From Candidatus Latescibacterota bacterium (GTDB lineage Bacteria > JAAXHH01 > JACQVL01): 8,797 nucleotides of DNA. Under the pieces are notes generated by a model. It was not told the origin of the DNA and did not search any database. It saw only the letters and a list, made by a program, of their open reading frames with translations. Below, piece by piece: positions 1-8,789 of this stretch. The stretch lies in contig JACQVL010000305.1 in NCBI GenBank assembly GCA_016209865.1, positions 1-8,797 of the forward strand. Reading direction: 5' to 3'. The stretch's first letter is position 1. Each line of letters begins with the position of its first letter. The translations under genes and the position numbers were made by a program.

Positions 1-368
1 CCCCGGAGATCCAGGACGCGGTCCTGCAGCGGGAGGTGGATGACGTGGCCTTTGCACACCTCGGTCGTGTCGCCCGGCTTCCCATCCAGCAGGGCATCGC
101 CAGCTTTGGCCAGGCGCTCTTAGCGGATGAGGTCCTGCTCGACAAGATCGACCGCTGGGTGGAAGAGGCTGCACTGCGCCTCATCCAGGCGTACGGTCAT
201 GAAGTCGGCCAGCTCATCTCCCAGACGATCCGCGGGTGGGACGCTGAAGCGGCCTCCCGGAAGATCGAACTGCAGATCGGGAAGGACCTGCAGTTCATCC
301 GGATCAACGGCACGATCGTCGGCGGGTTTGCGGGGCTGGTCATCCATATTGTTTCGCGGTTGTTGTAG
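1..368 (+). CDS. DUF445 family membrane protein, C-terminal part (5' end outside window)
   Basis: The reading frame is open from base 3 to the stop TAG at 366-368, giving 121 visible codons, so the gene starts upstream of the window. The end of the protein carries the signature typical of DUF445 (YjiN/YheB-type) proteins: an amphipathic helical stretch, then IGKDLQFIRINGTIVGG, then a short hydrophobic C-terminal helix (GGFAGLVIHIV) ending in SRLL. In this family the bulk of the protein is long helical soluble sequence with membrane helices near the termini, so this end probably anchors it in the cytoplasmic membrane. The biochemical role of DUF445 is not established and I propose none. The GTG at 36 is an internal valine codon, not a start, because the frame continues upstream with family-like sequence. 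The gap to the next gene is 126 bases and contains a promoter-like sequence, so co-transcription with the dehydratase is not implied. Confidence 0.85.
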   Translation, partial: PEIQDAVLQREVDDVAFAHLGRVARLPIQQGIASFGQALLADEVLLDKIDRWVEEAALRLIQAYGHEVGQLISQTIRGWDAEAASRKIELQIGKDLQFIRINGTIVGGFAGLVIHIVSRLL

Positions 369-385
369 CAGGTCGGCAAGAGGTC

Positions 386-414
386 TTGACAATTAAGTTG
401 AGGGGATGTAAATA
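386..414 (+). promoter_or_regulatory. Candidate sigma70-type promoter of the dehydratase gene
   Basis: A perfect -35 hexamer TTGACA (386-391) is followed by a 17-base spacer and TAAATA (409-414), a partial match to the -10 consensus. Transcription would begin near 420, leaving a leader of roughly 75 bases before the ATG at 495. The -35 box is overlapped by a 5-2-5 palindrome, CAAGA-GG-TCTTG (377-388), and GTGT-TAG-ACAC (416-426) lies at the predicted start site; either could be an operator. The spacing and the -35 are good, the -10 is mediocre, and the lineage's own promoter consensus is unknown. Confidence 0.45.
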
Positions 415-443
415 CGTGTTAGACACCTGTCACTGATTGAACC

Positions 444-471
444 GACCACCGACTACCGACCACTGACTCAT
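444..471 (+). repeat. Short tandem heptamer repeat, GACYACY type, about 4 units
   Basis: Units in exact 7-base phase are GACCACC (444-450), GACTACC (451-457), GACCACT (458-464) and the degenerate GACTCAT (465-471). The array sits in the untranslated leader of the dehydratase gene, just upstream of its Shine-Dalgarno site. It resembles the short tandemly repeated repetitive (STRR) heptamers known from cyanobacterial intergenic regions in period and placement, not in sequence. The arms GAGGGGATG (400-408) and CATCCCCTC (469-477) are perfect inverted repeats that would enclose the array in a loop. Confidence 0.6.
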
Positions 472-479
472 CCCCTCTC

Positions 480-484
480 AGGAG
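480..484 (+). promoter_or_regulatory. Ribosome binding site of the dehydratase gene
   Basis: AGGAG ends 10 bases before the ATG at 495, which supports that start. Relatives of this dehydratase begin a similar distance before the first conserved block (FRSAAWFG, residue 9 onward). Confidence 0.6.
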
Positions 485-494
485 CCCCGTCTGC

Positions 495-2222
495 ATGTCT
501 CAGCCGAGCACACGAACCTTCCGGAGCGCCGCCTGGTTCGGCCCGACGGATAAAGCCGGGTTCATCCACCGGAGCTGGATGAAAAACCAGGGATTGCCCG
601 ATCATCTCTTCGATGGCCGCCCGGTGATCGGCATCTGCAACACCTGGTCCGAACTCACTCCGTGTAATGCGCACTTTCGCCTGTTAGCGGAGCGGGTGAA
701 GCGCGGGGTGTATGAAGCGGGCGGGTTCCCGTTGGAATTTCCAGTGATGTCCCTGGGCGAGCCGTTGATGCGTCCGACGACGATGCTGTTCCGTAACCTC
801 GTGAGCATGGATGTGGAGGAATCCATCCGCGCCAACCCGCTCGACGGGGTGGTGCTGCTCGTCGGCTGTGACAAGACCACCCCTGCCCTGCTGATGGGCG
901 CGGCCAGTTGCGACCTGCCGACGATCGTTCTGTCCGGCGGGCCGATGCTCAACGGCAAGTTTCGCGGGCAGGACATCGGGTCGGGGACTGACCTGTGGAA
1001 GTTCAGCGAGGACGTCCGCCGTGGCGCGATGCGTGTGTGCGATTTCATCGACGCGGAATCGTGCATGAGCCGGTCGGCCGGCCACTGCATGACGATGGGG
1101 ACGGCCTCCACGATGGCCAGCATGGTGGAGGCGTTAGGCATGTCTCTGCCCGCGAACGCCGCCATTCCCGCCGTCGACGCCCGCCGTTACGCCTTAGCCC
1201 ATCTTACTGGGCACCGGATCGTGGAGATGGTGCACGAGGATGTGAGGATGTCCTGCATCCTCACCCGGAAGGCGTTCGAGAACGCAGTCCGGGTGATCGG
1301 GGCGATCGGCGGCTCGACGAACGCGGTCATCCATCTCCTGGCTTTAGCCGGCCGGGTCGGGGTAGATTTTACGCTGGACGATTGGGACCGTCTGGGGCAG
1401 GACGTCCCGTGTCTCGTCAACCTGATGCCGTCGGGCCAGTACCTGATGGAGGACTTCTACTACGCGGGCGGCCTGCCGGCGGTCATCCGTGAGCTGGGCG
1501 GCCTGATGGATCGGGATACGATGACGGTCAACGGTACGACAATCGGGTCGAACGTGGCGAACGCGCCCTGTTACAACCGGGCGGTGATCCGGCCGCTGGA
1601 CGACCCGCTCACCGCGAACGGGGGGCTGGCGGTCTTGCGCGGCAACCTCTGTCCGGACGGGGCGATCATCAAGCCGTCGGCGGCCACGCCCGCGTTGATG
1701 AGGCATCGCGGCCGGGCGGTGGTGTTCGAGCACATCGAGGACTTCCACGCGCGTATCGATGACCCCGGCCTCGACATCGACGAGACGTGCGTGATGGTGC
1801 TCAAACATTGCGGGCCGAAGGGGTACCCCGGCATGGCTGAAGTGGGCAACATGCCCCTTCCGCCCAAGCTGCTGAAAAAGGGCGTGACGGACATCGTGCG
1901 GATTTCCGACGCGCGGATGAGCGGCACCGCCTTCGGGACGGTCGTGCTGCACATCGCGCCGGAGGCGGCGGCCGGCGGCACGCTCGCCCTCGTCCGGGAT
2001 GGGGACATGATCGACCTCGACGTCGCCGCCCGCCGGCTCCACGTAGACGTGCCTGACGCGGAGCTGGCCCGGCGGCGGGCCGCCTGGACGCCCCCACCCC
2101 TGCCGTCCGACCGGGGCTACTACCGGCTGTACGTCGACCACGTCCTGCAGGCGGACCGGGGGGCGGATTTCGACTTCCTGGTCGGCAAGAGCGGGGTTGA
2201 GGTCGCGCGGGAAGCGCATTGA
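495..2222 (+). CDS. IlvD/Edd family dehydratase, pentonate (L-arabinonate-like) dehydratase branch
   Basis: This 575-residue cytosolic enzyme should remove water from a sugar acid to give a 2-keto-3-deoxy acid. The closest characterised type I recognise is the [2Fe-2S] L-arabinonate dehydratase of Rhizobium leguminosarum, of nearly the same length and similar throughout. Cluster ligands are C57 (WSELTPCNAH), C125 (VGCDKTTP) and C198 (SAGHCMTMGTASTM). The Mg site is expected from E89, D126 and K127, the lysine that is carbamylated in relatives. The catalytic serine is S476 in SDARMSGTAFG. These positions are offset by a constant 2 or 4 residues from the Rhizobium enzyme. Automated pipelines may call it ilvD (dihydroxy-acid dehydratase, branched-chain amino acid synthesis), but blocks such as SWMKNQGLPDHLFDGRPVIG and GPMLNGKFRG belong to the sugar-acid branch. 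The substrate is not provable here: L-arabinonate, D-fuconate or a related acid all remain possible. No sugar transporter or downstream keto-acid enzyme lies in the window. Confidence 0.9.
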   Translation: MSQPSTRTFRSAAWFGPTDKAGFIHRSWMKNQGLPDHLFDGRPVIGICNTWSELTPCNAHFRLLAERVKRGVYEAGGFPLEFPVMSLGEPLMRPTTMLFRNLVSMDVEESIRANPLDGVVLLVGCDKTTPALLMGAASCDLPTIVLSGGPMLNGKFRGQDIGSGTDLWKFSEDVRRGAMRVCDFIDAESCMSRSAGHCMTMGTASTMASMVEALGMSLPANAAIPAVDARRYALAHLTGHRIVEMVHEDVRMSCILTRKAFENAVRVIGAIGGSTNAVIHLLALAGRVGVDFTLDDWDRLGQDVPCLVNLMPSGQYLMEDFYYAGGLPAVIRELGGLMDRDTMTVNGTTIGSNVANAPCYNRAVIRPLDDPLTANGGLAVLRGNLCPDGAIIKPSAATPALMRHRGRAVVFEHIEDFHARIDDPGLDIDETCVMVLKHCGPKGYPGMAEVGNMPLPPKLLKKGVTDIVRISDARMSGTAFGTVVLHIAPEAAAGGTLALVRDGDMIDLDVAARRLHVDVPDAELARRRAAWTPPPLPSDRGYYRLYVDHVLQADRGADFDFLVGKSGVEVAREAH

Positions 2223-2230
2223 AGAAGGGC

Positions 2231-2328
2231 AGTGAGGAATGATGAGTGAAGAGGTAAGAGTGAAAACCTTTCATCCCCTCGGAGACATGCTTCTTAAACT
2301 CTTCACTCTTCATTCTTCACTCTTCACT
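2231..2328. repeat. Facing arrays of a degenerate heptamer (AGTGAAG / CTTCACT), potential long hairpin
   Basis: The left array has five units in 7-base phase: AGTGAGG (2231), AATGATG (2238), AGTGAAG (2245), AGGTAAG (2252) and AGTGAAA (2259-2265). The right array has four units: CTTCACT (2301), CTTCATT (2308), CTTCACT (2315) and CTTCACT (2322-2328). The right unit is the reverse complement of the left consensus, so the 152-base gap between the dehydratase and the next gene can fold into an imperfect stem about 28-35 pairs long with a loop of about 35 bases (2266-2300). There is no T-run after the stem, so it is not a classical intrinsic terminator. A transcription-attenuating or 3'-end-protecting role is possible. 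Confidence 0.7.
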
Positions 2329-2374
2329 GGAACGGAAGGGAAGCAAACTCTGTCTTCTGAATCGTGAATCACTC

Positions 2375-4354
2375 ATGACTCTCCACGATGTCTTGACCGC
2401 GCTCCCGCTCGACGACCTGAAGCTCATCGCCGCGACGCTCGGCCTGCAACCCACCCTCGTCTCGCGCGCGCGGCTGATCCGGGAAATCCCGATCTGGATG
2501 TTCGAGCCAGGGGTTCTCGAATCCTGTCTCGACCGGCTGAAGCCTGAGGAGCAAGACCTGCTGCTTGCCGTCCTCCTCACCGGGGATCGAGGGTACAGTC
2601 CCAGTCCTCATCTCCCGTATGAGCGCGGGCTGACCGACCGTCTGTATACCCTCCTCTCCCACGGCCTGATCGTCGGCCGGCGCGGCCCGGCCCGGACGCC
2701 GGAATACGTCGCGCCGGGTGATATTCGAGACGCGCTGACCGGATACCTCAACCGCCGGGCGGCCGGCCGGCTGGCGGCTTCCGTACGACCGCCGAGGACA
2801 GATGAGACAGATTCCCTCTCCTTTATCCGGGACCTGTTCTCCTTCCTCAGCGCGCTCCGGGTGGAGCCCGCCCGGCTGACCGACCATGAGGTGCTGTTCA
2901 AACGGGCACAAGAACACCTGTTCGACCGGTTCGAAGTCCGCGAATCCCTCCCGGCGTCGACGGTTCGGCCATACCCCGACCCGTTCACCCTGATGATGAC
3001 GTACTGCCAGACGCGGCGTCTCGTCTACACGGAAGACTCGCGGCTCCGGTGCTCGTCCGCGTTCGAGCAATGGCTGCACCTGCCGACGACGGAGAAGCTC
3101 GACGACCTGCTCGCCTTCTGGTACACCATGTCTCAGCGATGGTCTCCACGAGCCACCAGCTTGCTCGGCGTCCTCCAGGTTTGCCTCGACCTCGACGGGA
3201 TCGACATCGAATCGCTGACTCGCTTAGTCGTCGCCTGCACTCCCGGTCTCCCGTCCCAGCCAGCCGTCCTCGCGCGCGAGCGCACCGTGGTGATAGACGA
3301 CCTCCGTGAACTCGCCTGGCTCGGGCTGCTCCGCCTGTACGGGGGTGAGGCGTCTGGCCCGACGGCTGTCACCTTCACCCCGTGCGGCCGGGCGGTCTTG
3401 GGGAACCGGAGCTGGGCGGAAGAAGGGCTGTGGGCGGAACGGTTCATCGTGCAGCCCAACTACGAGATGATCGTCCCCCGGACGCTCAACTTAGCGGTTC
3501 GGGACGAACTGGAGCGGCTGGCTGACCTGATCGCCGTCGACCGGGCGTTGACGTACCGCATCTCGAAGGAGTCGATCTACCGGGCCGGGGACGACGGGGT
3601 GTCGGGCGAGGCGATCGTCGCGTTCCTGCGCCGGCACTCGGAGAAGCCCGTCCCGCAGAATGTGGAATACTCCATCCGCGAGTGGGGAGCGCATTACGGA
3701 CAGGTGTACTTCCTGGACGTCTTCTTGCTGATGACGGTGGACGCGGACTTAGCCCGGCACATCCGGGCGCATCCCGTCCTCTCCTCGTACATCCGGGGAG
3801 AAGTGGCCCCCCATGCCCTGATCGTCGAGCGGCACCAGTGCCGCGAGCTGATGGACGCGCTGAAGAAAGCCGGTTACATGCCGAAATCACAGGTGATCGG
3901 GATGGAGGCGGAACGGGCGACCGTTCATCTTCCGTTCAGTCGCGAGCGGTTCGCGGATGCCTGGTCGCGCCACCGTCCGGAGCGGGTGACGCCGCCCGTC
4001 ATCGGGATGGACGAATGCCTGCCCGGAGTTCGGCTCCGGCAGTGGTTCCGTTCGGGTGGGGCGGATGCGGCTCACCTGCAGCGAGCGTCTGAGTTGCAGT
4101 ACCTCTCACCCAAGCAGACTCAGGAATTGCTGGAACTGGCCATCCACCGGGATCAGACGATGCTGATCGATTATTCGACCGGGAACCGCGGCCGGAGCAC
4201 CCTCCAGGTAATCCGGCCTTCCCGGATCGATAAGACCCGAGGAACGCCCTACGTCGAGGCGTACTGCCCGTGGGATCACCAGACGAGAGCGTTCAAGATC
4301 GCCAACATTAAGGCCATCCGAATCACAGATGACACTGATGGACAAGACGGCTGA
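2375..4354 (+). CDS. XPB/Ssl2-like helicase-associated domain protein with C-terminal WYL-like domain
   Basis: This 659-residue soluble protein has no signal peptide or membrane segment. The N-terminal part (about 1-135) is helical and resembles winged-helix modules: SALRV- and LRELAWLGLLRLYG-type helices recur at 155-165 and 310-322. Residues about 350-480, beginning ERFIVQPNYEMIVPRTLNLA, match the XPB/Ssl2-like helicase-associated domain (Helicase_C_3 type). Residues about 580-652 (LLELAIHRDQTMLIDYSTGN, then TPYVEAYCPWDHQTRAFKIA) look like a divergent WYL domain with PYV in place of WYL. There are no Walker A/B or other helicase motor motifs, so it is not itself a helicase. Such motorless proteins occur in Firmicutes and Actinobacteria, sometimes near a separate XPB-type helicase; their role is unclear, with DNA repair or ligand/ssDNA sensing as guesses. 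The ATG at 2375 has no convincing Shine-Dalgarno; a purine-rich stretch at 2331-2345 is too far away. Both flanking gaps carry hairpins, so it is probably transcribed alone. Confidence 0.8.
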   Translation: MTLHDVLTALPLDDLKLIAATLGLQPTLVSRARLIREIPIWMFEPGVLESCLDRLKPEEQDLLLAVLLTGDRGYSPSPHLPYERGLTDRLYTLLSHGLIVGRRGPARTPEYVAPGDIRDALTGYLNRRAAGRLAASVRPPRTDETDSLSFIRDLFSFLSALRVEPARLTDHEVLFKRAQEHLFDRFEVRESLPASTVRPYPDPFTLMMTYCQTRRLVYTEDSRLRCSSAFEQWLHLPTTEKLDDLLAFWYTMSQRWSPRATSLLGVLQVCLDLDGIDIESLTRLVVACTPGLPSQPAVLARERTVVIDDLRELAWLGLLRLYGGEASGPTAVTFTPCGRAVLGNRSWAEEGLWAERFIVQPNYEMIVPRTLNLAVRDELERLADLIAVDRALTYRISKESIYRAGDDGVSGEAIVAFLRRHSEKPVPQNVEYSIREWGAHYGQVYFLDVFLLMTVDADLARHIRAHPVLSSYIRGEVAPHALIVERHQCRELMDALKKAGYMPKSQVIGMEAERATVHLPFSRERFADAWSRHRPERVTPPVIGMDECLPGVRLRQWFRSGGADAAHLQRASELQYLSPKQTQELLELAIHRDQTMLIDYSTGNRGRSTLQVIRPSRIDKTRGTPYVEAYCPWDHQTRAFKIANIKAIRITDDTDGQDG

Positions 4355-4445
4355 CACAGATAAAAACATGAACCTGAATCTGCTCACAAGGGATGGTGGA
4401 GCGGATCAGTGACATCATGTTGTTTATCTGTGTCATCTGTGATCC
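4320..4445. repeat. Long imperfect hairpin with two competing left arms, between the XPB-like gene and dnaE
   Basis: The inner stem pairs 4353-4371 (begins GACACAGATAAA) with 4415-4434 (ends TTTATCTGTGTC), complementary except for one bulged base. It continues inward between about 4374-4387 (CTGAATCTGCTCAC) and about 4396-4409 (GTGGAGCGGATCAG) with one mismatch and two single-base bulges. An outer arm, 4320-4339, inside the last codons of the upstream gene, matches the reverse complement of 4426-4445 at 18 of 20 positions. The right arm 4426-4434 is shared, so the two folds exclude each other. The right side also holds a 9-base repeat, TTATCTGTG then TCATCTGTG (4424-4441). No terminal T-run is present. 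Confidence 0.7.
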
Positions 4446-4455
4446 TGAAAGGATC
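4441..4455 (+). promoter_or_regulatory. Small hairpin covering the dnaE Shine-Dalgarno site
   Basis: GATCCT (4441-4446), loop GAA, AGGATC (4450-4455) is a perfect 6-base-pair inverted repeat. The right arm includes the likely Shine-Dalgarno sequence AAAGGA (4448-4453), which lies 7 bases before the ATG at 4461. Folding would hide the ribosome binding site. The 5' arm GATCC overlaps the right arm of the larger upstream fold (to 4445), so the two structures could compete. Confidence 0.5.
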
Positions 4456-4460
4456 CCCCC

Positions 4461-7400
4461 ATGCCCTCCTTCGTGCATCTGCACACCCACACCCACTACA
4501 GCCTCTTAGACGGGGCGTGCCGGATCGAAGACCTGGTCGAGACCGCCAAGGCGTACGGCATGCCCGCCTTAGCCATCACCGACCACGGCAACCTGTTCGG
4601 CGTGGTCGAATTCTACAAGACTGCGAAAGACGCGGGCATCAAGCCGATCATCGGCTGCGAATTGTACGTCGCCCCGCACAGCCGGAAAGACCGGACCCCG
4701 ATCAAGGGCGGCGACCGCGCTGAGACCAACGCCCACCTCGTCGTCCTCGCCCAGAACGCGCAAGGATACCGCAACCTGATGAAACTCGTGTCCCTGGCGT
4801 ATCTTGAGGGATTCTATTACAAGCCACGGGTCGATCAGGAACTCCTCGCCCAGTACAGCGACGGGCTGATCGCCCTGTCCGCCTGCGCGAAAGGGGTGAT
4901 CGCCAACCTCGTCCTGGCCGGACAGACGGAGAAAGCGCGGAAGCATGTCGCCCTCTACCGGGAGATGTTCGACGGCCGGTTCTACCTGGAACTGCAGGAC
5001 CACAGCCTGGAGTTCGACACGACGATCAACAACGCGATGATCGAGTTTGCCCGCGAATTCGACCTCCCCCTCGTCTGCACGAACGACTGCCACTACCTCA
5101 ACCGGGAAGATGCTGCCGCACAGGACGTGCTCGTCTGCATCCAGACCGGCAAAGAGATGAACGATCCTAAACGGCTTCGATTTAATACGGATCAGATTTA
5201 CTTCAAGACCGCTGGCGAGATGGCCCATCTGTTCGGACATATCACCGGCGCGGTCGAGAACACCGTGAAGATCGCCGAGTTGTGTGACTTCGAGATGGAA
5301 TTAGGGAAGCTCAAGTTCCCGCAGTTCCCCGTGCCGTCCGGGTACACCGACCTGGGTCAGTATCTCCGGGAACTCGCGTACAAAGGCCTTCATGAACGGT
5401 ACACGACAGTCACCCCGGCTCTGGAAGAACGGCTCAACTACGAACTGGACACGATCATCCGGATGGGTTATCCGGGGTATTTCCTGATCGTGACCGACTT
5501 CGTCAATTTCGCGCGCCAGCACAACATTCCGGTCATGGCCCGTGGGTCTGTGTTCGGCTGTCTGGTCGCCTACGCCCTGGGGATCACGAACGTCGACCCG
5601 ATGCAGTACGGCCTGCTGTTCGAGCGGTTCCTCAACCCGGAGCGGGTGAGCATGCCGGACATCGACATCGACCTGGCAGATCGGGAACGGGATAAGGTGA
5701 TCTCGTACGTCATCCAGAAGTACGGGGAGAACAGCGTCGCCCAGATCATCACGTTCGGGACGATGGCCGCCAAGGCCGTCATCCGCGACGTCGGCCGGGT
5801 GCTGGGTCTGTCGTACGGGGACGTCGACCGGATCGCCAAGCTCGTCCCGTCGGAACTCCACATCACCCTCGACAAGGCGATCGACCAGGTGCCAGAACTG
5901 AAGCAATTCGCCACGTCCGGGGGACAGGAAGGGGCGCTCCTGTCGTACGCCAAGACGCTCGAAGGCCTCGCCCGCCACGCTTCCACCCACGCCGCTGGCG
6001 TCGTCATCGCGCCGGGAGACCTGACCGATTACGTCCCGCTGTACAAATCGAACAAGGACGTCGTGACGACGCAGTACACCGGGGAGTACATGGAAGAGGT
6101 CGGTCTCCTGAAGATGGATTTTTTGGGCCTGCGGAACCTGTCGGTCATCCAGGACACCTTAGCGATGATCCGGGCGCGGGGTGAGGACCTCGACCTGGAC
6201 GCGATTCCGTTAGACGACAAGAAGACGTTCGAGTTGTTCGCCCGCGGGGAGACGAACGGCATCTTCCAGTTCAGCAGCTCCTGGCTATGGGACTACCTGA
6301 AGCGACTCAGACCCAACTGCATCGAAGACCTGATCGCCATGAACGCTCTTTGCCGGCCCGGCCCGCTGTACGGCGGGATGGTGGACGACTTCATCGACCG
6401 GAAGCACGGCCGGAAGGAGGTCACATACCTCCATCCCATCCTCGAAGCGACGCTGAAGGAGACGTACGGGGTGATCGTCTACCAGGAGCAGGCGATGCAG
6501 ATCGCCCGCGACTTAGCCGGGTACACCCTCGGCCGGGCCGACCTTCTTCGGCGGGCGATGGCGAAGAAGAAGCCGGAGGTAATGGCCGAGGAGAAGCGCC
6601 GGTTTATCAACGGCGCGGTCAGTCGCGGGGTGGAGAAAAAGACGGCGGAGGACATCTTCGATTTGATCGAGTACTTCGCGGGGTATGCGTTCAACAAGAG
6701 CCATTCGGCGGCGTACGCGATCGTGGCTTATCAAGAAGGCTACCTCAAGGCGCATTACCCGAAAGAATTCATGGCCGCCCTCCTGACGAACGAGATGATG
6801 AACACGGACGAAGTCACCGCCCTCATCGGGGAGTGCCGGAAGATGGGATTGCCCGTGCTCCCGCCCGACATCACCCAGAGCCAGGCCGGGTTCGCCGTCG
6901 AAGGCGATGCCATCCGTTTTGGCTTAGGGGCGATCAAGAACGTCGGCCTGTCCGCCATCGAGTCGATCATCCGGGCGCGGGAGCAGCACGGTCCGTTCCG
7001 GACGCTCTACGACCTGTGCGAGCATCTCGACTTGCGGCTCGTCAACAAGCGGGTGCTCGAGAGTCTCATCCAGGCCGGGGCGCTCGACCCGCTCGAAGGC
7101 CACCGGGCACAGCTCATGGCGGCTGTCGAATCGGCGATGGACGCGGCCCAGGCCCGGCAGAACGACCGGGACAAGGGCCAGACGTCGCTGTTCGACCTCG
7201 CGCCCGGCCAGACGAACCTCGTCATCCACCGGCCGGCCTTGCCGGCGGCCGAACGCTGGTCGGTCAGCCAGGCATTGGCGAGCGAGAAAGAGGTTCTGGG
7301 CTTCTACATCTCCGGCCATCCGTTAGCGGAGTATGAAGATGACCTGCGGGCGTTCACGACGGCGGAGATGAAGGGCCTCGACCGGCTCCGAGACGAGGAG

Positions 7401-7928
7401 GTCGTCGTCGGCGGGATCATCACGGAGATCAAGCCGATCGTCGACCGGAAGGGCAAATCGATGGCGTTCGTCACGATCGAGGACTTCTCCGGGCCGGGGG
7501 AAGTCCTGGTGTTCGCTGATCAGTACGAGATTCACCGGAAGTTCATCCGAACGGACGCTCCCATCCTGGTGCGCGGCCGGCTCTCCACGAAGGACGGGGA
7601 GAAGAAGGTGGTCGCGTCCGAGGTCATCCCCCTCGACCAGGCACGGAGCACCTTAGCGAAGTCAATCCACCTCACCGTCACCCCCGACCAGACGGACGAG
7701 GGGACGATCCAGGCGCTGAGGGCGGCGTTCCTCGCCCATCCTGGCCCGTGTGACGTCCATTTCCATGTCAAGACCGAGGCCAACGGAGAGGTGCATATCA
7801 AAGCGGGCGACCAGGTCCAGGTAGCCCCGGCCCGCGACCTCCTGCAGGCCGTCCGGGACCTGGTCGGGCGGGAGCGGGTATGGATGAGCGGCGGGATGGC
7901 GCGCGGCGGGAACAGCGGCAAAGGATAA
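4461..7928 (+). CDS. dnaE: DNA polymerase III alpha subunit (DnaE1 type)
   Basis: The catalytic subunit of the replicative polymerase, 1155 residues (E. coli 1160). The PHP domain (about 1-280) keeps the nine-residue metal site seen in Thermus-type enzymes: H6, H8, D17, H42, E67, H92, C142, D209, H211. The palm contains the catalytic aspartates D400 and D402 (SMPDIDIDLADRERD) and D553 (LLKMDFLGLRNL). Fingers (about 560-830) contain RPGPLYGGMVDDFIDRKHG, VIVYQEQAMQIA and FNKSHSAAYAIVAYQ. A helix-hairpin-helix region (about 820-876) precedes the beta-clamp motif QTSLFDL (907-913). An OB-fold spans about 978-1055 (VVVGGIITEI...MAFVTIEDFSG), and a C-terminal domain of the DnaE1 kind follows (about 1065-1145). 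Two conserved motifs deviate: GPGRGSAAGS-like sequence is replaced by MARGSVFGC (359-367), and ESxGM by SSSWL (605-609). The reading frame is intact through both. It ends 13 bases before the sigma factor gene, with which it is probably co-transcribed. Confidence 0.97.
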   Translation: MPSFVHLHTHTHYSLLDGACRIEDLVETAKAYGMPALAITDHGNLFGVVEFYKTAKDAGIKPIIGCELYVAPHSRKDRTPIKGGDRAETNAHLVVLAQNAQGYRNLMKLVSLAYLEGFYYKPRVDQELLAQYSDGLIALSACAKGVIANLVLAGQTEKARKHVALYREMFDGRFYLELQDHSLEFDTTINNAMIEFAREFDLPLVCTNDCHYLNREDAAAQDVLVCIQTGKEMNDPKRLRFNTDQIYFKTAGEMAHLFGHITGAVENTVKIAELCDFEMELGKLKFPQFPVPSGYTDLGQYLRELAYKGLHERYTTVTPALEERLNYELDTIIRMGYPGYFLIVTDFVNFARQHNIPVMARGSVFGCLVAYALGITNVDPMQYGLLFERFLNPERVSMPDIDIDLADRERDKVISYVIQKYGENSVAQIITFGTMAAKAVIRDVGRVLGLSYGDVDRIAKLVPSELHITLDKAIDQVPELKQFATSGGQEGALLSYAKTLEGLARHASTHAAGVVIAPGDLTDYVPLYKSNKDVVTTQYTGEYMEEVGLLKMDFLGLRNLSVIQDTLAMIRARGEDLDLDAIPLDDKKTFELFARGETNGIFQFSSSWLWDYLKRLRPNCIEDLIAMNALCRPGPLYGGMVDDFIDRKHGRKEVTYLHPILEATLKETYGVIVYQEQAMQIARDLAGYTLGRADLLRRAMAKKKPEVMAEEKRRFINGAVSRGVEKKTAEDIFDLIEYFAGYAFNKSHSAAYAIVAYQEGYLKAHYPKEFMAALLTNEMMNTDEVTALIGECRKMGLPVLPPDITQSQAGFAVEGDAIRFGLGAIKNVGLSAIESIIRAREQHGPFRTLYDLCEHLDLRLVNKRVLESLIQAGALDPLEGHRAQLMAAVESAMDAAQARQNDRDKGQTSLFDLAPGQTNLVIHRPALPAAERWSVSQALASEKEVLGFYISGHPLAEYEDDLRAFTTAEMKGLDRLRDEEVVVGGIITEIKPIVDRKGKSMAFVTIEDFSGPGEVLVFADQYEIHRKFIRTDAPILVRGRLSTKDGEKKVVASEVIPLDQARSTLAKSIHLTVTPDQTDEGTIQALRAAFLAHPGPCDVHFHVKTEANGEVHIKAGDQVQVAPARDLLQAVRDLVGRERVWMSGGMARGGNSGKG

Positions 7929-7931
7929 GGC

Positions 7932-7936
7932 GGAGG
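7932..7936 (+). promoter_or_regulatory. Ribosome binding site deciding the sigma factor start
   Basis: GGAGG lies 5 bases before the ATG at 7942. An in-frame GTG at 7936 overlaps this site and has no ribosome binding site of its own at proper distance, so ATG 7942 is the preferred start. Confidence 0.75.
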
Positions 7937-7941
7937 TGGTC

Positions 7942-8535
7942 ATGCCAGAGACTCCTGATCCAACACGCACGCGATTCGAATCCCACCTGACGCCCATCTT
8001 AGACGCCGCGTACGGCATCGCCCTCCATCTGACGCACAACCGGGACGATGCGGCTGACGTGATCCAGGAAGCGGCGTTCCGGGCGTTTCGAGCGTTCCAC
8101 ACCTTCCAGGAGGGGACGCGCTTCAAGTCCTGGTTCTTCCGCATCTTGACCAACGTCTTCCTGGAGGTGGTCCGCAAAAAACAGCGGGAGCCTGAGGTCG
8201 AAGAGGTGCCGGAAGACCTCTACCTGTACACCCAGACGCGGAATCTCGGACTCCATTCCGGGAACTCAGACCCGGCTTCTGTCATTCTACGGAAGATAGA
8301 GGCGGAACAGGTTCAGGACGCGATCGCCGCCCTGCCTGAGGAGTATCGGATCGTCTCGGCTCTGTATTTTATGGAGGAATTGTCCTACCAGGAGATCGCT
8401 GACATCGCCGGATGTCCGGTCGGGACCGTCCGATCCCGGCTCCATCGGGGCCGGAAACTGCTGCAGAAGGCGCTCTGGCAGATCGCGGAACGGCAGGGGA
8501 TCATCGCGGCGCTCAACGCACAAGGGGGAACCTGA
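7942..8535 (+). CDS. ECF (sigma-24 type) RNA polymerase sigma factor, SigR-like
   Basis: This 197-residue alternative sigma factor redirects RNA polymerase to a stress regulon. Region 2 covers about residues 14-82: DAADVIQEAAFRAFRAF, then GTRFKSWFFRILTNVFLE, then RKKQREPE. Region 4 covers about 124-182: ALPEEYRIVSALYFMEELSY, then the helix-turn-helix QEIADIAGCPVGTVRSRLHR, then GRKLLQKALW. A linker (about 83-118) takes the place of region 3, as usual in ECF factors. The GTxxKxWxxRILTNxF and KKQREP blocks and the IADIxGxPxGTVxSRLHRGR block resemble actinobacterial SigR/SigH, which responds to thiol oxidation. The next gene, an RsrA-like anti-sigma factor, supports this. The start is ATG 7942, chosen from the Shine-Dalgarno position. 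The gene follows dnaE by 13 bases and overlaps the anti-sigma gene by one base (TGATG), a sign of translational coupling. No own promoter is visible; the usual autoregulatory promoter could lie upstream of or inside dnaE. Confidence 0.93.
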   Translation: MPETPDPTRTRFESHLTPILDAAYGIALHLTHNRDDAADVIQEAAFRAFRAFHTFQEGTRFKSWFFRILTNVFLEVVRKKQREPEVEEVPEDLYLYTQTRNLGLHSGNSDPASVILRKIEAEQVQDAIAALPEEYRIVSALYFMEELSYQEIADIAGCPVGTVRSRLHRGRKLLQKALWQIAERQGIIAALNAQGGT

Positions 8536-8789
8536 TGAATCACATCGACCGATTAACATGCGAAGAAACGTTCCAACGCCTGAACGACTATCTCGACCGG
8601 GAACTGAATCCAGAAGAGATGCGCTTAGTGAAGGAGCATCTGGATATCTGCGCAGTGTGCGCGTCCGAGTATACGTTCGAAGCGAGCGTCCTCAGCGACG
8701 TGCGGATGAAATTGCAGCGGATTCACGTGCCCGCCGACCTGAGGACGAAGGTCTCCGCCGTGCTGGATCGGGTGGAACGAGGGGCGTAG
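8535..8789 (+). CDS. RsrA-like zinc-binding (zf-HC2/ZAS) anti-sigma factor
   Basis: This 84-residue soluble protein without a membrane helix should hold the preceding sigma factor inactive. It has the zinc anti-sigma motif HxxxCxxC at H35, C39 and C42, plus C9. The spacing C9-H35-C39-C42 equals that of the zinc ligands in Streptomyces RsrA (C11, H37, C41, C44). The C-terminal helix VPADLRTKVSAVLDRVERG (66-84) also resembles VPxDLRxKVxxxLDxxR of RsrA. In RsrA, oxidation forms a disulfide between the first cysteine and one of the CxxC pair, expels zinc and frees the sigma factor; the same switch is inferred here. The ATG at 8535 overlaps the sigma stop codon, with GGGGGA (8524-8529) as ribosome binding site. 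A longer frame reading back to 8412 is only overlap with the sigma gene. The stop TAG is at 8787-8789, and 8 bases of the window follow. Confidence 0.9.
   Translation: MNHIDRLTCEETFQRLNDYLDRELNPEEMRLVKEHLDICAVCASEYTFEASVLSDVRMKLQRIHVPADLRTKVSAVLDRVERGA

Follow-up and report, generated by a model that had tools for sequence, protein, structure and literature searches.

We found that the rare leucine codon TTA stands predominantly before codons beginning with G in the genome of a Candidatus Latescibacterota bacterium (GenBank assembly GCA_016209865.1; 3.75 Mb in 356 contigs, 83% complete). The pattern was originally predicted from one whole contig of this assembly, JACQVL010000305.1 (8,797 nucleotides; hereafter the window, our contig C262), which carries six genes including dnaE. 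We write the favoured arrangement as TTA-G, with hyphens marking codon boundaries. Judging from sequence comparisons, we consider it fairly probable that TTA-G reflects a lineage-specific 3' codon-context (codon-pair) bias acting at decoding. Codon-by-next-base bias is known in kind, but the TTA-G instance is unusually sharp.

The preference is a property of the genome as a whole. We examined stretches of the source genome totalling 747 kb (about a fifth of it), in which a simple codon-model open reading frame (ORF) caller identified 581 genes and 213,583 codons. TTA was followed by G 770 times, by A 69 times, by C 132 times, and by T 65 times, so that 770/1036 (74%) of TTA codons precede G. 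The corresponding figures for CTG and CTC are 34% and 37%, which bears out the original prediction that TTA would depart from these codons genome-wide. Of the leucine codons that precede G, 9.9% are TTA; for those that precede A, C or T the share is 1.4-2.3%, a roughly fivefold difference. With the amino acid controlled for, the odds ratio for TTA-G is 5.5 (z 24.6), and TTA is raised before 16/16 of the G-starting codons. Some counts, namely the codon-by-next-base ranking and the frame shuffles described below, were taken from the first 493 kb of the sample; in that ranking, TTA-G has the largest standardized excess of any codon-by-next-base pair (521 observed versus 250 expected). A preceding C strengthens the preference: C-TTA-G supplies 15% of the leucines that stand between a C and a G. 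This share reaches 17% when only the 40% of genes highest in GC content at third codon positions (GC3) are counted, and C-TTA before A, C or T amounts to 0.6-1.3% there.

We then asked how word counts depend on frame and strand, using comparison with synonymous-codon shuffles. TTAG in frame occurs 521 times versus 245 expected. The alternative frame (xTT-AGN) is depleted of TTAG, although synonymous third bases would permit the word there (24 versus 77 expected), and the antisense-equivalent CTAA is depleted in both of its possible frames (15 versus 31 and 43 versus 119 expected). The longer word CTTAG behaves in the same manner, with 309 occurrences versus 110 expected in the C-TTA-G phase, and 4 versus 18 expected as CTT-AG. 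Intergenic DNA shows no excess of TTAG (129 versus 123 expected, a ratio of 1.05). Nor does the sense strand of gaps between co-directional genes, which is probably transcribed but is untranslated (44 versus 40.7 expected, with no CTTAG preference). Finally, the strand-mirrored synonymous change, xCC-AA to xCT-AA, is without excess (7.2%, like neighbouring contexts). The bias is seen only in frame and on the sense strand, with ORFs showing it more strongly than noncoding DNA. Altogether, these controls indicate that the codon in its frame, rather than a DNA or RNA word, is what is selected or mutated.

The preference is also widely distributed among genes. When genes are divided into GC3 quintiles, the TTA-G odds ratio rises from low to high GC3 (1.8, 2.9, 8.2, 9.9, and 11.2). 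The two ends of this range differ in both components: TTA-G has a share of 7.1% in the lowest quintile and 12.0% in the highest, and the share of TTA ahead of A, C or T drops from 3.8% to 1.1%. Because the preference rises with GC3 and does not come from a small number of genes, we rejected the idea that these codons are left over from AT-rich or foreign genes. In the 60% of genes with the highest GC3, TTA-G makes up about 11% of leucine codons preceding G, and over-dispersion between genes is mild (chi-squared per degree of freedom, 1.33). The preference is not limited to gene starts (7.9% within the first 20 codons and 11.5% beyond them), and successive TTA-G sites are spaced at a median of 89 codons with no striking clustering.

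Within the window, a codon scan reproduced every position given in the original prediction: TTA occurs in frame 20 times across the six genes and is followed by G in 19 cases. Each of the six reading frames proved to be a real gene with a Pfam match. All genes and sites lie on the + strand. A gene encoding a DUF445 protein, of which the window includes the 3' part (3-368; PF04286, E=1.3e-31), contains a TTA-G at 120-123. It is followed by a gene for an IlvD/Edd dehydratase (495-2222; PF00920 and PF24877), with TTA-G at 684-687, 1134-1137, and 1344-1347 and C-TTA-G at 1194-1197, and by a gene for a protein with Helicase_C_3 and WYL domains (2375-4354; PF13625 and PF13280), with C-TTA-G at 3224-3227, 3491-3494, and 3749-3752. 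The gene dnaE, encoding the DNA polymerase III alpha subunit (4461-7928; PF07733, PF17657, PF02811, and PF14579), contains nine sites: C-TTA-G at 4506-4509, 4569-4572, 6159-6162, 6513-6516, 6924-6927, and 7653-7656, and TTA-G at 5301-5304, 6210-6213, and 7323-7326. Similarity of this dnaE to plasmids is limited to short, diverged pieces. Downstream are an ECF-type sigma factor gene (7942-8535; Sigma70_r2 and r4_2), with C-TTA-G at 7999-8002, and a zf-HC2 anti-sigma-like gene (8535-8789; PF13490), with C-TTA-G at 8625-8628 and the sole exception, a TTA-A, at 8553-8556. The two CTA codons that had been noticed, one in dnaE at 6285 followed by T and one in the sigma factor gene at 8287 followed by C, were likewise recovered, as was the complete lack of CTAG, for which dinucleotide shuffles expect 12.0 occurrences.

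In the window, G is the first base of the next codon in 37.5% of cases, close to the 40% that had been assumed, and 19/20 is indeed far from chance (P about 1e-7). The + strand of the window contains 20 TTAG and one CTAA. Because the total over both strands is ordinary (21 versus 15.3 +/- 3.8 expected), the signal lies in frame and strand, and not in the number of tetramers. In the source genome minus the window, 73.6% of TTA codons precede G, and the 95% seen in the window is somewhat higher (P = 0.018). It is unremarkable against high-GC3 genes, in which about 87% is typical (P = 0.25).

We next considered what the preference displaces. In the first 493 kb, the combined share of TTA and TTG among leucine codons is 16% whether the next base is G or A, and their sum is roughly flat across next bases when the preceding base is A, G or T. 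Before G, TTA seems to be used instead of TTG. When the preceding base is C, the sum doubles before G, which indicates that UUA is positively favoured there.

A codon-context effect on UUA is what is left of the three candidate causes in the original prediction, and it fits the data best. If decoding is the cause, a following G would make UUA acceptable or even advantageous and UUG unfavourable. The codons UUA and UUG are served by tRNA-Leu(UAA) and tRNA-Leu(CAA), and both anticodons are present among the four leucine tRNAs of the source genome. With G at the start of the next codon, tRNA-Leu(UAA) may read UUA more quickly or with fewer errors; alternatively, UUG may be the more error-prone codon in this situation. 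Since all of the favoured next codons begin with G, the partner in the favourable context would be an incoming A-site tRNA with C36. Weak selection on synonymous changes could then fix the preference across the genome. Several observations sit uneasily with this explanation. A simple 3' effect does not predict the strong dependence on a preceding C, and the preference is not common to other NNA codons. The effect is weaker in the ribosomal-protein cluster, where TTA makes up 8.1% of leucines before G and 4.0% otherwise, and the TTA-G leucines of DnaE are not more conserved among 15 relatives (0.66 versus 0.72, over only 9 sites). Thus neither strongly expressed genes nor conserved positions bear the usual signature of selection for fast or accurate translation.

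A more specific version of a decoding effect is that unusual handling of UUA and UUG, such as altered tRNA-Leu wobble chemistry linked to an apparent loss of every SpoU-family 2'-O-methyltransferase, has reshaped leucine codons genome-wide, with UUA being read well only before G and best in C-UUA-G. We found no candidates for a SpoU-family (PF00588) 2'-O-methyltransferase in the source genome, which is 83% complete and has some contigs masked. Four or five were found in each of 6/6 order relatives searched, and the family was present in 14/14 control genomes, so this family has probably been lost from the lineage. TrmL (TIGR00185) has no match over the cut-off in the source genome, but none in the relatives either; loss of wobble methylation by TrmL was therefore rejected as the cause of the difference from them. 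Given the incomplete, partly masked genome and relatives without TrmL, the link to SpoU is a correlation in a single genome, and we regard this version as quite unlikely. The source genome also encodes a predicted selenocysteine tRNA with anticodon TCA (stretch L015, 8916-9013).

Mutation, rather than decoding, could in principle produce a frame-restricted pattern. A strand-specific, transcription-linked change of TTGG to TTAG, visible only where it is synonymous and possibly aided by avoidance of TTGG/CCAA, would account for the depletion of TTG-G where TTA-G is enriched and for the nearly constant TTA plus TTG after A, G, and T. It would also agree with the avoidance of CTTGG and CCAAG in several phases. 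TTG-G is likewise avoided in the order relatives (odds ratio 0.25) and in Escherichia coli, yet the relatives gain no TTA-G. Neither the transcribed but untranslated gaps (44 TTAG versus 40.7) nor the mirrored xCC-AA to xCT-AA change (7.2%) show the excess that such a process should leave, and conversion alone is insufficient where TTA plus TTG doubles before G after C. Moreover, at the TTA-G sites of DnaE the relatives mostly use CTG or CTC, not TTG. We therefore judge this mutational route unlikely. The original prediction had listed a different one as a candidate, replacement of CTAG by synonymous TTAG after methylation and deamination. In the form weighed here, methylated CTAG deaminates, or is repaired, to TTAG that survives where the change is synonymous (CTA-G to TTA-G). 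CTAG is in fact very rare, both in the window and in intergenic DNA (0.16 of expectation), and a C-to-T change in it is synonymous only at the in-frame leucine position. However, genomes G018 and G027 and two order relatives, G011 (odds ratio 0.16) and G013 (0.15), have equally little CTA-G, and none of these has a comparable TTA-G excess. Intergenic TTAG is at 1.05 of expectation even though CTAG is missing there as well, and the TTA plus TTG total is about equal before G and A, as if TTA had replaced TTG and not CTA. The suggested search for a CTAG methyltransferase returned no PF00145 C5 enzyme in the 83%-complete genome. Decay of CTAG is thus largely refuted, and its rarity, which is common to relatives without the TTA-G excess, is a separate feature.

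The original prediction also suggested a strand-oriented TTAG motif. Selection on the sense strand for TTAG or CTTAG as a DNA or RNA signal, be it for restriction-modification, recombination, transcription or RNA processing, would be in keeping with a context that reaches beyond TTAG to C-TTA-G. Such a signal should not be depleted in the other frame, as both xTT-AG and CTT-AG are despite synonymous options, and should also be enriched between genes, yet neither intergenic DNA nor the sense strand of operon gaps shows enrichment; we consider it very unlikely. Selection for out-of-frame stops ("ambush") is scarcely credible. TTA-G does hide a +1-frame UAG that could halt frameshifted ribosomes, but TTA-A, which also hides a stop, is disfavoured (46 versus 161 expected), and other codons that create an off-frame TAG are not raised (CTA-G 11, GTA-G 99, and ATA-G 65, versus 51, 110, and 66 expected). 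We consider the CTAG proposal about as unlikely as a TTAG signal, and a codon-context bias at decoding is the explanation that we carry forward.

We also asked how widely the preference is found. Named relatives of the source DnaE, 65-72% identical to it, are recorded under metagenome-assembled genomes (MAGs) of Candidatus Latescibacterota, Gemmatimonadetes, and Zixiibacteriota, with the source DnaE being closest to Latescibacterota-type genomes. The nearest genomes available for comparison were 15 of the same order, none of them of the same family. The TTA-G excess was found in none of the order relatives examined (including G001, G011, and G013), nor in pooled loci. Most other sampled bacteria were also without the preference; in E. 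coli (odds ratio 0.48) and in pooled GC-rich samples from other phyla (Mantel-Haenszel odds ratio 0.62) the direction is opposite. A weaker version is present in one distant genome, G019, in which 16/21 TTA codons precede G. Avoidance of TTG-G is broader than the local TTA-G effect, since besides the order relatives and E. coli it is seen in one Rhizobium and one Streptomyces replicon. In many bacterial samples, some codon-by-next-base pair reaches an odds ratio between 4 and 40. The size of the effect is therefore not distinctive; its codon, direction, and sharpness are. An extreme case is a bacterial MAG contig, JPMR_metabat.36 (L068), in which GAC is favoured over GAT before C with an odds ratio of 38 and GAT-C occurs 3 times, possibly due to avoidance of GATC.

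Other word and codon biases are present in the source genome. CAGCTG is very strongly avoided in coding sequence (5 versus 148 expected, frame 0), and CTG makes up only 1.7% of leucines after CAG. Further palindromes avoided in coding sequence are GGNCC, CYCGRG, GRGCYC, CCGCGG, and TCGCGA, and the genome contains several PF01555-type methyltransferase loci. This avoidance of palindromes suggests past or present restriction-modification pressure. Where a G-starting codon follows leucine, CTC is preferred if that codon is GNC (37-63%) and avoided if it is GNG (13-20%), so that the wobble base of one codon depends on that of the next.

Synonymous choice is known to depend on the first base of the next codon once amino-acid effects are removed; this dependence is tied to the reading frame, is weaker in noncoding than in coding sequence, and varies between species (PMC1088947; PMC3202573; PMC2585594). 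TTA-G resembles it in its dependence on the next base, its frame restriction, and its species specificity. It differs in that one rare codon is nearly confined to a single context (74% overall and about 87% at the highest GC3), and in running opposite to the direction seen in E. coli and in GC-rich bacteria. The control of TTA codons by bldA in Streptomyces (PMC12772374) also involves a GC-rich genome, a rare TTA, and a dedicated tRNA-Leu(UAA). Unlike in bldA-type control, TTA here is found in housekeeping genes, with nine in dnaE, and its over-dispersion from gene to gene is only mild (1.33, as above), so it does not act as a switch restricted to a handful of regulated genes. The rarity of CTAG known from bacteria is likewise strong here, in coding and noncoding DNA, and unlike TTA-G it is common to the relatives. 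We found no report of a rule placing UUA before G in the openly licensed (CC0, CC BY or CC BY-SA) literature in PubMed Central.

Why neighbouring bases alter codon choice is an old open question, and most such biases mix causes at the levels of DNA and translation. Because the TTA-G preference is sharp, runs against both composition and the tendency of most sampled bacteria, and has had DNA-level causes largely excluded, it offers a clean test case. If it is merely one of many species-specific context biases, it would be a well-measured example of a known phenomenon. Relatives or tRNA modifications that differ in this respect, if found, could identify the cause of a codon-context rule.

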